Source of the DNA: Neorhizobium galegae bv. officinalis
GTDB lineage: Bacteria > Pseudomonadota > Alphaproteobacteria > Rhizobiales > Rhizobiaceae
Direction: 5' to 3'
NCBI GenBank assembly: GCA_000985875.1
Contig: CCRI01000013.1
Location: 62,001-126,000, forward strand
DNA length: 64,000 nt
A program made the position numbers and the translations under genes. Position 1 is the first letter of the stretch, and every line of letters begins with the position of its first letter. The notes beneath the pieces were generated by a model. The model saw only the letters and a program-made list of their open reading frames with translations. It was not told where the DNA came from and made no database searches. Positions 28,701 to 62,298 of the stretch are shown here, one piece after another.

Positions 28701-28722
28701 TGAGACGGCGATTGCCGCCTCA
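28701..28722. terminator. Possible bidirectional hairpin between lrp and the ABC ATPase
   Basis: TGAGACGGC and GCCGCCTCA pair with one wobble around a four-base loop, in the convergent gap, touching the ATPase stop codon. There is no T-tract, so terminator function is uncertain. Confidence 0.35.
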
Positions 28723-30378
28723 GCCGTGCACATAGGTTTTGACGAGCTCCGGATCACGCTCCAGACGATCGAGCCAGCCCGGATCGAGCTTCGGCACGGA
28801 CGAGAACAGCAGCTTCGAATAGGGGTGCTGCGGGACCTTCGAGATAGCAGGCGTGATTTCCTCGACCTTGCGGCCGTTATACATCACGACGATCTCGTCG
28901 CAGATCGCTTCGACGACCGAGAGATCGTGGCTGATGAAGATGTAGGAGAGGGAAAGTTCCCGCTGCATTTCTTTGAGGAGATCGATGACCGCCGCCGCGA
29001 CGACGGTGTCGAGGGCAGAGGTGATCTCGTCGCAGACGATCAGTTTCGGCTCGGCGGCGAGCGCCCGGGCAAAATTGACGCGCTGTTTCTGACCGCCGGA
29101 AAGCTCGGCGGGGGTCCGGCTGCGAAGTGCCTTCGGCAGGCGGACCATGTCGAGAAGCGCGTCGATCCGGGCATCCCGGACCCTGCCTTTCATGCCGTGG
29201 TAGAATTTCAGCGGCCGTCCGAGAATTTCCTCGATCGTTTTCGCCGGATTGAGCGAGGTGTCCGCATGCTGGAAGACGATCTGTAATTCGCGCAACTGCT
29301 CCCGGCTTCTGTGCCGGGCGGAGCGGGCAAGTTCGCGCCCATCAAGGGTCAGTTGTCCGGCGGATGCCGGCAGGATGCCGGCAATCGAGCGCGCAAGCGT
29401 GGACTTGCCGCAGCCGGATTCCCCGATGATGCCGAGATTGCGGCCTCGTTCCAGGGAAAGGCTTGCCTCCTGCACGGCCTTGACGAGCGGCAGGCCGTCG
29501 GCCTGGACCGGACCGTACCCGGCGATCAGGCCGTTGACCTTCAGGAGCGGCGTGTGTCCCGGCGCTGCAACAACGACGCTTTCGCCGCGAGACTTCGGTT
29601 CAAAGGCCGAAAGCAGCTCGCGCGTATAAGGATGCTTGGCATCGGAGAGGATGTCGGCGGTGTTGCCGACTTCCTGCACATCGCCGCCACGCAGCACGAC
29701 GATGCGATCGGCAATCTGTGCGACGACCGCGAGATCGTGGGATACATAGACGCCGGCAATGCCGCTTTTCTTCATCACCGCCTTGAAGGCACGCAACACC
29801 TCGATCTGGGTGGTGACGTCGAGCGCGGTGGTCGGTTCGTCGAAAATGACGAGCTTCGGATCGGAGATAAGGGCCATCGCGGCGGCAAGACGCTGCAACT
29901 GTCCGCCGGAAACCTGGTGCGGGTAACGGTTGCCGATCTCCTCGGGATCGGGCAGCGAAAGCGACCTGAACAGGGAAATCGCCTTCTCCCTGGCCTGCGC
30001 TATCGGCATCAGCCGATGGATGCGCGTCACTTCGACGACCTGGTCGATGATGCGCTTCGACGGGTTGAAGGCGGCCGCGGCGGACTGCGGCACATAGGAG
30101 ACCTCGAGGCCGCGCACATGTGCGCGCTGACGCTCGCTGAGCGTCACCATGTCCTTGCCGGCCACTGTGACGCTGCCGCTCGTGATCCTGCATCCGGGGC
30201 GGGCATAACCCATGATCGTCAGTGCGATCGTCGTCTTTCCCGATCCGCTTTCGCCGATCAGGGCGACGATTTCGCCCGGCGCGACGTCAAGGTCGACGCC
30301 CTTGATGATCTCGATGCGGCGACCCGCATCGGTCGTTGCCTCTACCCTCAGATCGCGAATTTCAACGAGATTTTCCAT
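28720..30378 (-). CDS. Peptide-type ABC transporter ATPase, fused DppD-DppF form
   Basis: A 552-residue protein with two complete ABC cassettes in tandem, the fused form of the Dpp/Opp ATPases. Cassette 1: Walker A GESGSGKTT, signature VSGGQLQR, Walker B LVIFDEPTTALD. Cassette 2: GESGCGKST, LSGGQKQR, and LIVCDEITSALD with Ile where Pro is usual. Single fused ATPases are common in this transporter family in alphaproteobacteria. The start codon directly follows the stop of the permease gene, so the two are coupled. It drives the importer formed with the permeases at 30379-32174 and the binding protein at 32294. Confidence 0.93.
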   Translation of the reverse strand: MENLVEIRDLRVEATTDAGRRIEIIKGVDLDVAPGEIVALIGESGSGKTTIALTIMGYARPGCRITSGSVTVAGKDMVTLSERQRAHVRGLEVSYVPQSAAAAFNPSKRIIDQVVEVTRIHRLMPIAQAREKAISLFRSLSLPDPEEIGNRYPHQVSGGQLQRLAAAMALISDPKLVIFDEPTTALDVTTQIEVLRAFKAVMKKSGIAGVYVSHDLAVVAQIADRIVVLRGGDVQEVGNTADILSDAKHPYTRELLSAFEPKSRGESVVVAAPGHTPLLKVNGLIAGYGPVQADGLPLVKAVQEASLSLERGRNLGIIGESGCGKSTLARSIAGILPASAGQLTLDGRELARSARHRSREQLRELQIVFQHADTSLNPAKTIEEILGRPLKFYHGMKGRVRDARIDALLDMVRLPKALRSRTPAELSGGQKQRVNFARALAAEPKLIVCDEITSALDTVVAAAVIDLLKEMQRELSLSYIFISHDLSVVEAICDEIVVMYNGRKVEEITPAISKVPQHPYSKLLFSSVPKLDPGWLDRLERDPELVKTYVHG

Positions 30379-47299: not shown

Positions 47300-47503
47300 G
47301 CCTCTTCCGTGGCGGTGCCCCCCGCCATAGCGATATGGAAAATCGAGGCTGCCACTCCAGTGACTGCGGCCAGAGTTCGAGCGAAGGCTGAGAAGCAACC
47401 TCTTCCATCTGGCTTTGACCTCAGTCAAGAAATCGAGCTAACATCCGGGACAGGAGCGGCGGTGGCCTGTCGGCTGGGGAACGCCCTGTAGACGGAGATG
47501 CAG

Positions 47504-48058
47504 ATGAGGCGCGCGCTTTTCCTCCTGAAATTGACGACGATGGTGATCGGGACGATTTGTCCGGCATCCGGCGTTTTTGCAGGCGCTCAGCCGGTTCTCT
47601 GGAGCGCCCTGCGGCCTGCGGATCAATCGAGGTTGGATGCTGCCCTGCCGGGCATGGCGTCCAGCCGGCCCCAGGGAGAAACACTTGCCTGGCGTGACGA
47701 AGCCCGTACGGTGGAACTGACCGGTTTCATCCTGCCGGTCGACCAGGACGGCGATTTGGTTTACGAGTTCATGCTTGTCCCCTGGGCCGGCGCCTGCAGC
47801 CACAGCGCCGCTCCGCCACCGAACCAACTGGTGCATGTGGTCGCTGCCGAGCCGTTCCATCTCTCGCGGGTCTATGAAGTCGTCACAGTGAGAGGAAATC
47901 TGAGGCCCGGTTTGGACAAGGCCCAGCTCTTCATCATGGACGGGGTACGGGTTCTCGACTACGGCTACAGCATGAGCCACGCGCAGGTCGCAAAGGCGAC
48001 CGGCTTCGTGGATCCGGACCTGAAGACCATCTCGCCGTTGGGGGTTCTTGCGCGATAA
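47504..48058 (+). CDS. DUF3299 domain protein, secreted
   Basis: A 184-residue exported protein with a signal peptide (MRRALFLLKLTTMVIGT, cleavage near VFAG). The mature part matches DUF3299: VELTGFILPVDQDGDL, EFMLVPWAGACSHSAAPPPNQLVHV with one Cys and two His, and EVVTVRGNL. The function of the family is not established; the conserved Cys/His block suggests metal binding. ATG 47504 is six bases from GGAG, whereas ATG 47498 would overlap it. It is convergent with the cobalamin-riboswitch operon and upstream of nothing on its strand. I cannot link it firmly to the metal-related genes nearby. Confidence 0.85.
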   Translation: MRRALFLLKLTTMVIGTICPASGVFAGAQPVLWSALRPADQSRLDAALPGMASSRPQGETLAWRDEARTVELTGFILPVDQDGDLVYEFMLVPWAGACSHSAAPPPNQLVHVVAAEPFHLSRVYEVVTVRGNLRPGLDKAQLFIMDGVRVLDYGYSMSHAQVAKATGFVDPDLKTISPLGVLAR

Positions 48059-48113: not shown

Positions 48114-48878
48114 TCAGGCTTGGCCATTGTCAAAAAAGCCGTTGAGCAGGAGCGTGACCAGCGCGAGCGCGACGCCTGGCCAGATCATCAGCATCGGGTG
48201 GTCGAAAATGAACACGCGATATTCAAACAGCATCGATCCCCAATCCGGCTTCGATGGATCGGCCCCGAGACCGATGAAGGCGAGCGAGGCATAGGCAACC
48301 GCCGCAAGTCCCGCCTGATTACCGACATAGGCGAACATCAAAGGCAGGGTATTGGGCAGAAGGTGCCGGGCGATCATCCGCAAAGGTGCAATACCGAGGC
48401 TCCTTGCCGCCAGGATGAACGGCTGGCCGAGCACCCTCAGGCTAAGCGCATGCGCAAGCAGCGCATGCGGGCCGACGCCGGCCAGACCCAGCGCCAGCCC
48501 CGCGCTGAGCGGGGACAGGCCAAAAATCGCCGCTGCCGCCAGTGCGACGATGAGCGTCGGCACCATGACGAAGAACTCGCAGAACCGCAGGACCACCGTT
48601 TCCCGCCAGCCGCCAAGCACGGCGGCAGCGGTGCCCAGCAGGGTGCCGAAGAAAAAGCCGATGGCACCGACCGAGAGGATGACGCAGGCCGTCCGCCAGC
48701 CGCCGGCCATGATGCGCGACAGAAGATCGCGACCGAGATGATCGGTACCGAGCAGATGGCCGGCGGTCATGCCGGAATGACGGGCAAGCATGTCCACCGC
48801 ATCGGGATCATGTGGCTGCCAGAAGCCGCCGACACAGAGAAAGACGGCGAGCGCCGCGAGCATGATCAGCCGGGGCAT
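48114..48878 (-). CDS. ABC permease, DppC/NikC-like (cobalamin-riboswitch operon)
   Basis: A 254-residue permease with the DppC-type block GTDHLGRDLLSRIMAGG near residue 45 and coupling loop ARSLGIAPLRMIARHLLPN. Members of this permease family import peptides, nickel or cobalt. The ATG overlaps the stop of the upstream permease by one base. It is the last gene of the operon controlled by the riboswitch at 52215-52378. No ATPase gene follows: the next gene is convergent. Confidence 0.9.
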   Translation of the reverse strand: MPRLIMLAALAVFLCVGGFWQPHDPDAVDMLARHSGMTAGHLLGTDHLGRDLLSRIMAGGWRTACVILSVGAIGFFFGTLLGTAAAVLGGWRETVVLRFCEFFVMVPTLIVALAAAAIFGLSPLSAGLALGLAGVGPHALLAHALSLRVLGQPFILAARSLGIAPLRMIARHLLPNTLPLMFAYVGNQAGLAAVAYASLAFIGLGADPSKPDWGSMLFEYRVFIFDHPMLMIWPGVALALVTLLLNGFFDNGQA

Positions 48879-49792
48879 CAGGCAAGACGCGGATCGAGAA
48901 GGCGCATGGCGAGATTGGCGCTGGCATTCAATACAAGCATCCAGATGGCAATGACCATGACATAGGCCTGCAGCACCATCTGGTCGCGTGCCGCGATGCT
49001 TTGCACCAGGAACTGGCTGATGCCGGCAAGGCCGAAGAGAATCTCCATGGTCGCGGTGCTGCCGATCACCCAGCCGGCTTCGGAACGGACTGCCGACAGG
49101 AGAGCATAAAGCGCGCCGCGGTGGCCGTGCCTCCAGAGTGCCTGCCTTTCCGACAGGCCCTTGGCAAGCGCCGTGCGGAAATGCGGCTGCCCGGCGGTCT
49201 CCTTCAGGTCGCGCCGATAGACGCGGGAAAGAACGGCAACGGAATGCAGCGCGATCAGCAGGATTGGCAGGACGATCGCGGTCCAATCATTGGCAAAGGG
49301 TCTGACCCAGCGCAGCCGCACACCGAGGACCCAGAGAAGGACAAGGCCCAGCCAGAAGGCAGGCACCGCCTGAACGAAGATCGACAGAGCCCGGCTCATC
49401 CGATCGGCAATGCCCCCGGGATGGGCGGCTGAGAAGAATCCGAGCGGAATTGCCAGCACGATCGCCAGAGCCAGGCCGGCGAGACCGAGCGACAGCGAGA
49501 CCGGCAACCGCTCGGCGAACTCGGCAAGCACGGGCTCTCCGGTCCGGAAGGAGCGGCCCCAATCTCCGGTGAGGAAATCCGCCAGCCAGTGCAGATACCT
49601 GACCGGCAGCGGCTGATCGAGCCCCCACTCCGCCCTCAACGCGGCGACGGTTTCCTCCGTCGCCGGCAGGCTCCAGGCGCGAATGGCGATCGTGACCGGA
49701 TCGGCCGGCATCAGGGTGATGACCGAGAAGGAGGCGAGCGAAACCGCCAGCAACCCCGCTATCGATTGTATGCCGAACCGGGCCAGCCGCAT
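48878..49792 (-). CDS. ABC permease, DppB/NikB-like (cobalamin-riboswitch operon)
   Basis: A 304-residue permease: first helix SIAGLLAVSLASFSVITLMPADPV, then the ATP-family permease block LRAEWGLDQPLPVRYLHWL and GDWGRSF, coupling loop RTALAKGLSERQAL, and a late segment TMEILFGLAGISQFLVQSI. ATG 49792 or GTG 49795 may start it. It lies nine bases downstream of the binding-protein stop and overlaps the second permease by one base. The loop after the coupling region lacks part of the usual EAA pattern, but I see no disabling lesion. Confidence 0.9.
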   Translation of the reverse strand: MRLARFGIQSIAGLLAVSLASFSVITLMPADPVTIAIRAWSLPATEETVAALRAEWGLDQPLPVRYLHWLADFLTGDWGRSFRTGEPVLAEFAERLPVSLSLGLAGLALAIVLAIPLGFFSAAHPGGIADRMSRALSIFVQAVPAFWLGLVLLWVLGVRLRWVRPFANDWTAIVLPILLIALHSVAVLSRVYRRDLKETAGQPHFRTALAKGLSERQALWRHGHRGALYALLSAVRSEAGWVIGSTATMEILFGLAGISQFLVQSIAARDQMVLQAYVMVIAIWMLVLNASANLAMRLLDPRLA

Positions 49793-49801
49793 CACCTGGC
49801 C

Positions 49802-51298
49802 CTACTCCGCCTCGCCGATATCGGCGCGCAGGACGTGGTAGTCGGATCCCCACGGCTCGTAGTTCTTGAGCCGCTTCGACAGGCCGACATACCAGACGGG
49901 CGATACCAGGAAGGAGGCGGGCGCATCGGCGAAGATTTTCTGCTGGGCATCCAGCGCGATCGCCACCCGCTTTGCCGGATCGCCCTCGGTCGCAAACCGG
50001 TCGAGGATCGCATCGAAGTCTGGCGAGGCATATTTCGCGTAGTTCAGGGAAGCGCCGCTTCTCAGCATCGAGTTCAGGAAAAAGGCGGCATCGCCGCTCG
50101 GGGCAGTGTGCTGCGCCCAGAGTGCGATGTCGAAGTCGCCGGCCGAAGCGACCTGTTGGATGTTCTCCACCACCTGCGTATCGATGGCGATGCCGATCTT
50201 TGCGAGTTCCGCCTTGACCACCGGCAGCATGGTGACGAGATCCGGGCGCTGCGGATAGGTGATGACCAGCAGGCGCAGCGGCGTGCCGCCCTTTTCGCGC
50301 ATGCCGCCGCTGCCTTTTGCCCAGCCGGCTTCGTCGAGCAGCGCTCCAGCCTTGGCGAGATCGCTCGGGCGGGCCTCCCTGCCGGCAAAGGGGAAATAGG
50401 CGGCGTAGGCACCTGTGGCCGGTTCGCCGCCGTTGATCGCGGCCGCAAGCTCCTTGCGGTCGAAGGCCAGATCGATCGCCCGGCGCACCTTCACGTCAGC
50501 CATCAGCGGCCGGGCAGTATTGAAGAAGGCGAGATACTGGTACCCGACCGGGAACGACTTGATCGTCAGGTCCGGACTGGTCTTGAGCCGGCTCACGACC
50601 TCCGACGGCAAGCCGAAGGCCATGTCGAGTTCTCCTGCTTCCAGCGCCAGCGTCAGGGTCTGGGCATCACCGAACCTGCGGAAATTGACCGGCGAACGCT
50701 TTTCGGCGCCGGCGAAATGCATGTTGGCCGCAAGCGTGATCGAGGCATCCGCCTTGAAGTCGGAGACACGGTAAGGACCGCTGAAGACGGCATTGCCGGT
50801 CCCGGTGGGCTTGTAGGCAACCAGCGGCCATTCGGCAAAGAGTGCCTGAATGAACGGCACCGGTTTTTCGGTCGTCACCTTCAGCGTCAGGTCGTCGCCC
50901 GCCTCGAAGGTCAGCTTGCCGCCGGTCGCGAGCGCCGCCTTGTTGTTGGCGAACGTCGTATCGAAACCGGCTGCCAGTGCCCTGGCGGTGACGGGCGTGC
51001 CATCGGAGAACAGGCGGCCGGGCTTCAGGGTGACGGTCCAGGTCAGGTCTGCGATGCGCTCTGCCTTCTCGGCCAGTTCCGGCACGAGCTTGCCGTTGCG
51101 ATCGACGGTGAAGAGGTTCTCGCCGACGCCATGGCTGACCAGAGCCCAGCCGTTCGAGCCCTTGGCCGGGTCCGTGCCGCTGGTGATGTAGGTGGCACCG
51201 ACGCGAAGCGGCTCGCCTGCGAAGACAGTGCCCGCGGTGACAAAGGTGGCGGCGGTGAGCCAGGCGGCGGCCAGGCGCGATACGGTCTGCGACCTCAA
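49802..51298 (-). CDS. ABC substrate-binding protein, family 5 (cobalamin-riboswitch operon)
   Basis: A 498-residue periplasmic binding protein of the peptide/nickel family with a signal peptide (RLAAAWLTAATFVTAG, cleavage near VFAG). Family block FSDGTPVTARALAAGFDTTFA. It starts at a TTG (51296-51298), supported by AGGAGAG upstream and a four-base TTGA overlap with the stop of the preceding gene. Under cobalamin control, cobalt, a cobalamin precursor or nickel is the natural candidate ligand. From memory, a Sinorhizobium cobalt importer named cbtJKL is also riboswitch-controlled; I could not test orthology. Confidence 0.9.
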   Translation of the reverse strand: MRSQTVSRLAAAWLTAATFVTAGTVFAGEPLRVGATYITSGTDPAKGSNGWALVSHGVGENLFTVDRNGKLVPELAEKAERIADLTWTVTLKPGRLFSDGTPVTARALAAGFDTTFANNKAALATGGKLTFEAGDDLTLKVTTEKPVPFIQALFAEWPLVAYKPTGTGNAVFSGPYRVSDFKADASITLAANMHFAGAEKRSPVNFRRFGDAQTLTLALEAGELDMAFGLPSEVVSRLKTSPDLTIKSFPVGYQYLAFFNTARPLMADVKVRRAIDLAFDRKELAAAINGGEPATGAYAAYFPFAGREARPSDLAKAGALLDEAGWAKGSGGMREKGGTPLRLLVITYPQRPDLVTMLPVVKAELAKIGIAIDTQVVENIQQVASAGDFDIALWAQHTAPSGDAAFFLNSMLRSGASLNYAKYASPDFDAILDRFATEGDPAKRVAIALDAQQKIFADAPASFLVSPVWYVGLSKRLKNYEPWGSDYHVLRADIGEAE

Positions 51299-52122
51299 TT
51301 CTCTCTCCTCTTGTTCTGTTCGGATGGGGTGCGAAGCCGCTGCTTGCGGCCCGTCGGGTGATAGGCGAAGTCCTCGACGATACGGCCGCCCAGCAGGTGC
51401 TCGCCGATGATCCGGTCGATCGCATTTTCGTTGACGCCGCCGTAATAGGTGCCTTCGGGAAATACCTGCAGCACGGGCGCCAGGCTGCAGGGACCGAGAC
51501 ATGTGGACTTTGCCGTCATCGTGCCATCGCCGGCAGCGCGCAATTTCTGCCGCTCCTGCTGGTTGCGAAGATGTCCCCAGATCACATCGGCTCCGGCCGC
51601 GTTGCAGGGACCGCCCTGGCAGACCAGCACGCGGCGTTTCTGGGCCGGCACGAGGGAACCTTCGATGACAGGCGGGTTTTCGGTCTCTGGAGCATCCAGC
51701 GCCTCGGCCGTCTCAAGCAGTTCGCCGAGAAGATGCGCCATCAGCGTGCTGGAGGCGATATCCTTGGCGACGGACAAGGCGGGCCAGGGGCGGCTGTCGG
51801 CGGCCTTCCAGCGCGTCAGCGATTTCGTCAGCCAGATATGGAAGCTTGGCTCCATGGGCAGGACAAGCGGCACGATCACGACGGTTTCGACATCCTCGTC
51901 GAGCAGATCGGACAGCGCTTCGCGCAGGGAAGGGGTTCCCTGCTCGGTAAAGGCGAAGCGCACGGTTCGGGCTCCGGTCGCGCCGGCCGCAAGCTCCGCG
52001 AGCCGCCGCATTTCCCGATGCGGCGATGCCGCAAAGGCGGATTTCGCGATCAGGAGGACGGCGCGACCGGATAAATTCTGGGAAGGTAATCCCTGTGTTT
52101 TCACTGCCTTCGTCTCACTCAT
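51295..52122 (-). CDS. CbiX-domain plus thioredoxin-like [2Fe-2S] ferredoxin fusion protein
   Basis: A 275-residue cytoplasmic protein of two parts. Residues about 18-125 resemble CbiX (sirohydrochlorin cobaltochelatase): VLLIAKSAFAASPHREM and IVPLVLPMEPSFHIWL. The usual HGS metal-binding His near the start is replaced (LIAKSA), though a His remains in PSFHIW. Residues about 165-245 form a thioredoxin-like ferredoxin with VCQGGPC and STCLGPCSLAP giving four Cys for [2Fe-2S]. It is the first gene after the cobalamin riboswitch and overlaps the binding protein gene. It may handle cobalt or electrons for corrin insertion; that role is inferred. Confidence 0.85.
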   Translation of the reverse strand: MSETKAVKTQGLPSQNLSGRAVLLIAKSAFAASPHREMRRLAELAAGATGARTVRFAFTEQGTPSLREALSDLLDEDVETVVIVPLVLPMEPSFHIWLTKSLTRWKAADSRPWPALSVAKDIASSTLMAHLLGELLETAEALDAPETENPPVIEGSLVPAQKRRVLVCQGGPCNAAGADVIWGHLRNQQERQKLRAAGDGTMTAKSTCLGPCSLAPVLQVFPEGTYYGGVNENAIDRIIGEHLLGGRIVEDFAYHPTGRKQRLRTPSEQNKRREN

Positions 52123-52214
52123 TGAGGAGGCAGCAAAAATGAAGGTTACGGCAGGCGCGATGGCCCGACGGAACCGTCATCCCTGTGGCACACCCCGACC
52201 ACGGAACTTCTATC

Positions 52215-52378
52215 GTCAGGCAGGTCTCCTGGCTTGCGGGTCAAAGCCTTCATCGCCCGTCTTCCCGGCATTGGCTGCCAGTGACATGTTGGACGAACGG
52301 CTCACCGCTCACAGTTGCGGGACAGCTCCGGTTTTTACCGGATTCCCTCTTAGCTTCCATCGCGGGATGGAAGAACCT
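52215..52378 (-). promoter_or_regulatory. Cobalamin (B12) riboswitch
   Basis: On the minus strand the region contains the B12-box AGCCAGGAGACCTGCC (52219-52234), GGGAATCCGGT, and the pseudoknot-forming CTGTCCCGCAACTGTGA with the class-typical spacing and order. The element ends about 90 bases before the CbiX/ferredoxin start. It should turn the four-gene operon down when cobalamin is plentiful, so the operon supplies cobalt or a precursor. Confidence 0.93.
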
Positions 52379-61932: not shown

Positions 61933-62298
61933 CTATGATGGTCGCCTTCGCTTCACGCTGGAGTTCTCGCGGATCGTGTCGATGAATGCCCGCAGTTTTG
62001 GCTGGCTCTGCATGGCTGCCGGAAAATACAGGAAAATGCCGTCATCCGGAGGAATGTCGTCTGCGAACATCAATTCAAGATCGCGGCGGGCGAGCTCTTG
62101 AGCCACTTCGACGTCCAGCACGAAGGCGGGACCAAAACCCTGCACGGTCAATCTGGCCAGCGCAGCCCGATCGTCGATGATAAGGCCGGTGTCCATCTGC
62201 CCCTGCAACGGCTTGCCCTCGCGCTGGAATTCCCAGACCTGCAGAGCGAAAGCCGGGAAACCGGTACATTCTTGCTGCGAGATCACCAACGGGTCCAG
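61933..62298 (-). pseudogene. LysR regulator C-terminal remnant
   Basis: From just after the ugpC-like stop, the frame reads LVISQQECTGFPAFALQVW, then TGLIIDDRAALARLTVQGFG and QSQPKLRAFIDTIREN, the C-terminal half of a LysR effector-binding domain (TGFP and the final RAFID helix are typical). The DNA-binding half is absent, and the upstream part of the frame is only a shadow of the ATPase gene. It has no start of its own and is probably a dead fragment left by a recombination event at the ugpC end. Confidence 0.7.

Follow-up and report, generated by a model that had tools for sequence, protein, structure and literature searches.

We analysed a 64,000-nucleotide stretch of contig CCRI01000013.1 of Neorhizobium galegae bv. 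officinalis (positions 62,001 to 126,000), here called the window, and focused on a four-gene operon that lies behind a cobalamin riboswitch and encodes a binding protein and two permeases of a Nik/Opp-type importer. The genome is Neorhizobium-like, 6.4 Mb in 54 contigs and 99.97% complete. In the order of transcription the features are:

52396-52202, minus strand: cobalamin riboswitch aptamer (RF00174), full length (125.6 bits, model positions 1-189 of 189)
52122-51295, minus strand: CbiX-like / thioredoxin-like [2Fe-2S] ferredoxin fusion, 275 amino acids (PF01257 2.7e-10, PF01903 1.4e-05)
51298-49802, minus strand: family-5 substrate-binding protein (SBP_bac_5), NikA/Opp5A-like, 498 amino acids, with a TTG start that overlaps the upstream stop
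49792-48878, minus strand: permease B, NikB/OppB type (BPD_transp_1; by Pfam and NCBIfam)
48878-48114, minus strand: permease C, NikC/OppC type (BPD_transp_1; by Pfam and NCBIfam), with a start that overlaps the permease B stop (TGATG)

The riboswitch had been proposed in a first-pass annotation of this DNA, and the covariance search agreed: the match covers the whole model (E 3.8e-31, against a gathering score of 31.5 bits), is the only Rfam match above thresholds in the window, and includes position 52378, where that annotation had begun the operon. The fusion gene starts about 80 bases 3' of the riboswitch, at either ATG 52122 or GTG 52104. All four genes are on the minus strand with ends that overlap or nearly touch. 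The description of the genes as all overlapping held for the fusion and binding-protein genes (ATTGA) and for permeases B and C, but not for the binding-protein and permease B genes, which are a few bases apart. The operon is therefore a riboswitch-preceded set of four genes, and it has no ATPase gene. As the annotation had noted, none is present nearby: a profile search found no ATP-binding cassette (ABC) ATPase in the surrounding 15 kb (C13:105000-120000). Because the operon is internal to a 229 kb contig, this absence is not an assembly-edge effect. By its riboswitch, the operon is presumably expressed when adenosylcobalamin is scarce.

To see how far this arrangement extends, we scanned 84,980 species genomes for the fusion protein with two short peptide patterns, which may miss relatives, and recovered 44 loci. 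These comprise 22 class I loci, which have this binding protein and permease pair, 5 class II loci, in which a divergent NikABCDE-like system stands behind the same fusion, and 17 others. An ABC gene was counted as adjacent if it was on the same strand, scored above 60 bits and started no more than 0.9 kb ahead of the permease C end or 1.5 kb past it. No ATPase adjoins permease C in any of the 22 class I loci, each of which has 4.7-5.8 kb of sequence beyond permease C, whereas two ATPases are kept in all five class II loci. Evidence of a riboswitch is present at all 22, as a B12-box match ahead of the fusion in 20 and as a cmscan match in L123 and L128; L122 and L149 were confirmed by cmscan as well. 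The ATPase is likewise missing from seven more sources (the present genome, G039, G015, G017, an N. galegae plasmid, Shinella and Paracoccus aminophilus), all with a B12 box before the fusion and, for the present genome and Paracoccus, a cmscan match. The first-pass annotation had allowed that an ATPase gene might prove to be part of the operon; we looked for one, and it is absent from all 29 class I loci, in each of which the four-gene order is intact. ABC genes do occur within 4.5 kb of some of these operons, on the opposite strand in L111, L115, L120 and L103 and on the same strand in L104, L122 and L149, where they belong to complete neighbouring systems.

Among 120 relatives, the binding protein was found in 13 genomes, including the present one. 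One of these (G064) has a 33% match that belongs to class II, and the other 12 have the same four genes in the same order. The flanking genes vary between genera and among the more distant of these 12 genomes, so the conserved unit is the four genes. The binding protein is 89.6-94.8% identical to those of four N. galegae plasmid records.

The 17 other loci show that the fusion protein also keeps different company. BtuFCD-like genes stand beside it in L132, L133, L141, L145 and L148 (partly by reading of neighbours), and such neighbours occur in Martelella and Oryzicola. L139, L140, L142, L143 and L144 have an ABC gene no more than about 4 kb upstream. Five loci are from Aminobacter: in two (L119:9067-9834 and L137:9007-9768) the fusion has a B12 box, adjoins no transporter and sits behind a 1269-amino-acid gene that we read as resembling metH, and three (L116, L118 and L121) have an Opp system at least 3 kb away on the other strand. 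L150 and L151 are partial or poorly matched. The thioredoxin-like ferredoxin protein is thus a constant partner across three different cobalt/corrinoid transporter arrangements. As a separate observation on class II, a Mesorhizobium metagenome-assembled genome (L064:10321-12842) has permease C and an ATPase in one 585-amino-acid frame, followed by a second ATPase.

We also examined more distant relatives. At E 1e-60 the binding protein was found in 9 of 385 genomes of the class, including the present one; G484, whose contig ends about 0.2 kb after permease C, was left out of the ATPase counts. The best distant copies are 40-52% identical. Among seven distant alphaproteobacterial relatives with at least 1 kb of sequence beyond permease C, the ATPase is absent from six (L162, L163, L164, L166, L167 and L168). 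Of these, L164 could be followed for just 1.1 kb past permease C, and L163 shows two weak ABC matches on the opposite strand (37 and 23 bits). The seventh, L169, has a different arrangement with two ATPases upstream. A riboswitch was found by cmscan in L162, L167 and L168 and not in L163, L164, L165 or L166; in L166 a B12 box is matched where the contig ends. The first gene in L162 (8126-8659) and L167 (7646-8110) is DUF1636 instead of the fusion; in L166 and L168 the interval between box and binding-protein gene is too short for such a first gene. A published analysis groups DUF1636 with the thioredoxin-like [2Fe-2S] ferredoxins (PMC4520260; this and the other papers below are cited from excerpts). 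In the phylum, permease B reached E 1e-50 in only 3 of 398 genomes, including the present one, and the other two matches, L208 with ATPases and L209 without, are both outside the clade described next.

We placed the permeases in a maximum likelihood tree of 51 joined permease rows, with the present genome's Opp systems and class II for comparison. The class I and distant alphaproteobacterial pairs form a group (100/100) with pairs from Fusobacterium and Aerococcus that is separate from the Opp systems and class II, and 23 core rows group at 100/100. The Fusobacterium locus has two ATPases next to permease C (by profile), and the Aerococcus locus has two annotated ATPases there, the first one short. 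Support for the ATPase-less rows as a single clade is just 38/92, which leaves one or a few losses of the ATPase.

One explanation of an importer without a motor is that the unit no longer transports, its binding protein and permeases being a sensor or decaying leftovers. The missing ATPase is in keeping with this, as is an in-frame TAG in the binding-protein gene of the distant copy L168. However, the ratio of nonsynonymous to synonymous substitution rates (dN/dS) of the permeases, 0.09-0.17 against four congeners, indicates purifying selection, and the gene order is intact throughout class I; we consider loss of transport highly improbable. For the neighbouring AztD gene, dN/dS is 0.12-0.21 against three congeners. 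An importer that borrows its ATPase should lack an ATPase gene of its own and have intact permeases, and both were found here.

A second explanation is that the permease pair is an ATPase-free facilitator, for which the metal gradient and intracellular trapping of cobalt supply the driving force. The ATPase is absent across the clade, and CbiM with CbiN, of another family, has been reported as a minimal cobalt-transport set (PMC7689651). Against this, the binding protein is kept and the coupling loops, which are meaningful only with an ATPase, are still conserved: in permease B, KG is present in 19 of 19 class I rows, AKG in 18 and a start of RTALAKG in 13. Nor do we know of a type I importer that works without an ATPase. 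We therefore regard a facilitator as rather improbable. A wider version of the idea, that an old alphaproteobacterial Nik/Opp branch gave up its ATPase permanently, with the gradient and trapping through the CbiX-like/ferredoxin or DUF1636 partner driving cobalt transport, strikes us as speculative and improbable too.

If the permeases are powered by an ATPase, it would have to be encoded elsewhere, and we searched the genome for it. PF19300 identified 43 B-type permeases, to which our own profiles added two (L081 and L095), for a total of 45. With the NikE profile, 150 of 298 candidates were scored and 146 matches listed, and none of those listed exceeded the curated NikE cut-off. Sorting by hand the 75 matches of at least 163 bits, together with 8 lower-scoring partners, gave 42 clusters: 41 ATPase pairs and one single gene, MetN-like by reading, that is followed by MetI- and MetQ-like genes. 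Each of the 41 listed pairs has a permease no more than about 6 kb away, so none is an orphan Nik/Opp pair. Below that score the follow-up covered a carbon-phosphorus lyase cluster on C16 (PhnK, PhnL and PhnC), in which PhnK and PhnL are without a permease, and an 84-amino-acid ABC fragment (L089). Four permease units are not matched by an ATPase pair, namely this operon and those at C21:53458, C1:257412 and C4:272508.

The annotation had suggested a search for an orphan ATPase under riboswitch control. The genome has five cobalamin riboswitches, which precede this operon, a DUF1636-cobW set, a CbtA stretch, a nitroreductase-family gene and a Rieske oxygenase gene. None of the five precedes an ATPase, and we rejected such a gene as the motor. 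The only ABC gene in the stretches behind them, at L050:2922-3767, was discarded as a candidate; it is several genes away from its riboswitch and looks, by its neighbours, like part of an Mla-type lipid system. The Rieske ring-hydroxylating oxygenase gene directly behind one riboswitch (G000:C12:187759-187990; L051:6414-7658) is an odd gene to be under B12 control.

These searches bear on a third explanation, that a dedicated ATPase encoded at an unlinked site serves this permease pair alone. Partner genes can be unlinked, and candidates below the score floor of our search remain. In addition, a smaller genome that bears the operon (G063) contains an ATPase pair (L202) with no permease nearer than about 5 kb, but this pair may serve a permease-only unit (L201) about 14 kb away. 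In the present genome the listed Nik/Opp pairs are all beside permeases, the ATPases encountered without one being PhnK, PhnL and the fragment already described, and the MetN-like gene has partners of its own. The genome's best matches to the cognate ATPases of Fusobacterium are only 38-39% identical. Taken together, we consider a dedicated ATPase unlikely.

Since no orphan ATPase was found in this search, sharing with a complete system is the simplest account. The first-pass annotation had named a fused DppDF as an example of a possible donor:

28720-30378, minus strand: fused DppDF ATPase, outside the operon, part of its own Opp-type system

This gene comes straight after the permease C gene (30379) of its own complete system and is 17.7 kb from the operon. 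Among ten operon-bearing congeners, a DppDF orthologue (at least 70% identity) is present in eight and missing in two (G001, with no match, and G054, with 48%), and it is also present in 14 congeners without the operon. It lies on the operon's contig, about 19-39 kb away, in G015, G017, G023, G039, G044, G051 and G052. With permeases of its own and an orthologue missing from two of the ten, DppDF was rejected as a general donor; it may have a role in the other eight. Attempts to predict a donor from coupling-loop similarity or from reciprocal best hits with smaller genomes gave no single answer. The ATPases of L086 (C10:97091-98748) and L081 (C16:68626-70227) are orthologous in the two smaller genomes compared, which makes them weak donor candidates.

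With these results, we favour a B12-repressed importer as the product of the operon, with Co2+ as its likeliest cargo and with the ATPase pair of another Opp-type system as its shared motor, and we hold this reading to be moderately probable. The annotation's proposal that power comes from an ATPase encoded elsewhere thus appears the likeliest, given an operon without an ATPase. In this model, scarcity of adenosylcobalamin would permit expression through the riboswitch, and the binding protein would deliver its cargo to permeases B and C. The ATPase pair of another peptide/Opp-type system in the same cell would then power the permeases, as MsmX does for sugar importers, and the fusion protein would act on the incoming metal in the cytoplasm.

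Several observations weigh against ATPase sharing. No donor ATPase stands out, and our orphan search covered ATPases that reach 163 bits against the NikE model or match oligo_HPY. The coupling loops are unlike those of the genome's own complete Opp systems, with at most 15 of 36 positions shared for permease B and at most 17 of 36 for permease C, a divergence not in favour of ready sharing. Three of the 29 class I loci (Paracoccus, Hoeflea and Kaistia terrae) have a complete Opp system, with its own binding protein and permeases, at a distance of 2.7-3.3 kb. Finally, the precedent is from another class. The multitask ATPases MsmX and MsmK serve incomplete type I sugar importers that have no ATPase gene of their own (PMC7658222), and nothing in our analysis showed sharing in the peptide/nickel class. 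This operon shares with those importers the missing ATPase gene, but they are of the sugar class and have a known orphan ATPase, whereas here the class is peptide/nickel and no orphan pair was found.

Which cargo the system carries is a separate question from its power source. For all three transporter proteins the best NCBIfam matches are to nickel/Opp families, and none reaches its curated equivalog cut-off (Opp2B, 250.5 against 350 bits; Opp5A_nikA, 254 against 600; Opp2C, 165.2 against 300). The closest solved relatives of the binding protein are nickel-binding proteins. Two of its histidines do not vary among the 28 alphaproteobacterial rows aligned and are shared by the Fusobacterium and Aerococcus members; these rows include L165, which is outside the ATPase counts, and omit L169. 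In the solved nickel-binding relatives 3t66 and SaNikA, residues other than histidine occupy the corresponding positions, so the binding protein looks like a subfamily of its own. Because of the nickel-binding relatives, the riboswitch control and the two invariant histidines, Co2+, free or chelated, is probably the cargo, in line with one of the two that the annotation had named, cobalt or a corrin precursor.

We hypothesized that the cargo could instead be a corrinoid precursor or nickel. Cobalamin riboswitches control corrinoid importers too, one of them standing before btuB (PMC3621897), the fusion protein is found beside BtuFCD-like systems as well, and the best solved relatives are named for nickel. 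For nickel, there is no evident reason why uptake should track B12, and the excerpt that treats the B12-riboswitch NikABCDE systems of two Clostridia makes them an exception to nickel specificity (PMC2667541). We give a cargo other than cobalt a small but appreciable chance. The corrinoid importers known to us are all of the BtuFCD or energy-coupling factor (ECF) type.

The first gene had been annotated as CbiX. The fold was borne out: Pfam and structure comparison both place the N-terminal domain in the chelatase fold, with CfbA (6m28) at E 5.2e-05 and CbiX (3lyh) at a TM-score of 0.80 by target length. The implied chelatase activity was not. Of the two positions that we take to be those of the catalytic metal-binding histidines of CbiX, the first, in the HGS motif, is replaced by AKSA, ARSA or AKAS in the 15 of 17 aligned rows that cover it, and the second is S or G in the aligned members that cover it; some rows, including the present protein, have another histidine two residues on. 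With both positions replaced, a chelatase role is unlikely. Four cysteines, C168, C173, C208 and C212, are invariant in 17 of 17 rows and are predicted to bind the cluster. The AlphaFold model is good only for residues of about 20-140, and we did not interpret its unreliable ferredoxin half. The fusion protein thus shares its N-terminal fold with the CbiX/CfbA/SirB chelatases and differs from them in its replaced histidines and attached ferredoxin domain. We suggest that it is perhaps a redox or metal-handling partner.

The operon can be compared with two known kinds of cobalt or nickel importer. With the NikABCDE/Opp-type nickel-cobalt importers it has in common a family-5 binding protein and NikB/NikC-type permeases, and the NikABCDE systems of Clostridium tetani and Desulfitobacterium hafniense are likewise under a B12 riboswitch (PMC2667541). 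It differs from them in that NikD and NikE are absent from the locus, with no orphan substitute found, in the extra fusion gene in front, and in proteins that miss the curated NikA, NikB and NikC equivalog cut-offs. The annotation had suggested kinship with CbtJKL of Sinorhizobium meliloti, a cobalt importer under a B12 riboswitch (PMC7689651). CbtJKL is similar in being such an importer in a rhizobium, which is this operon's probable role. However, it consists of a binding protein, permease and ATPase, and CbtJ is described in the excerpt as similar to BtuF, which sets it apart from the SBP_bac_5 and BPD_transp_1 proteins here; the operon belongs to another importer class, and the suggested kinship is not supported.

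Titles and abstract starts in the open-licence literature yielded no ATPase-less Nik-type cobalt importer. The operon would represent either ATPase sharing in the peptide/nickel importer class, which we did not find described in the literature searched, or an ATPase-free type I permease pair. The cargo matters as well, as cobalt supply limits B12 production in rhizobia and their relatives.

Three other Opp-type binding-protein and permease units in this genome lack an ATPase pair of their own (L187, C21:51948-55395; L188, C1:255632-259175; L192, C4:270568-274244), and no riboswitch match was found at the scanned loci of such units (L187, L188 and L070). ATPase sharing may be common in this genome.

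Around the operon, a gene for the zinc metallochaperone AztD (53825-52587 of the window, minus strand; 413 bits against a cut-off of 400) lies directly upstream of the riboswitch, and beyond it a LacI-like regulator is on the opposite strand, by our reading. Downstream, a DUF3299 gene (47498-48058, plus strand) is convergent with the operon. Several Neorhizobium relatives also have DUF3299 close to the operon; in L058 and L059 it is upstream, beside AztD or a CobW-like GTPase (the GTPase by reading of neighbours). In G001, a zinc/manganese-like ABC system, also read from the neighbours, is convergent just downstream of the operon. On a Shinella plasmid (L103:506-2857), metE is preceded by a cobalamin riboswitch and lies close to the cobalt operon; a gene for a ring-hydroxylating oxygenase is immediately upstream.

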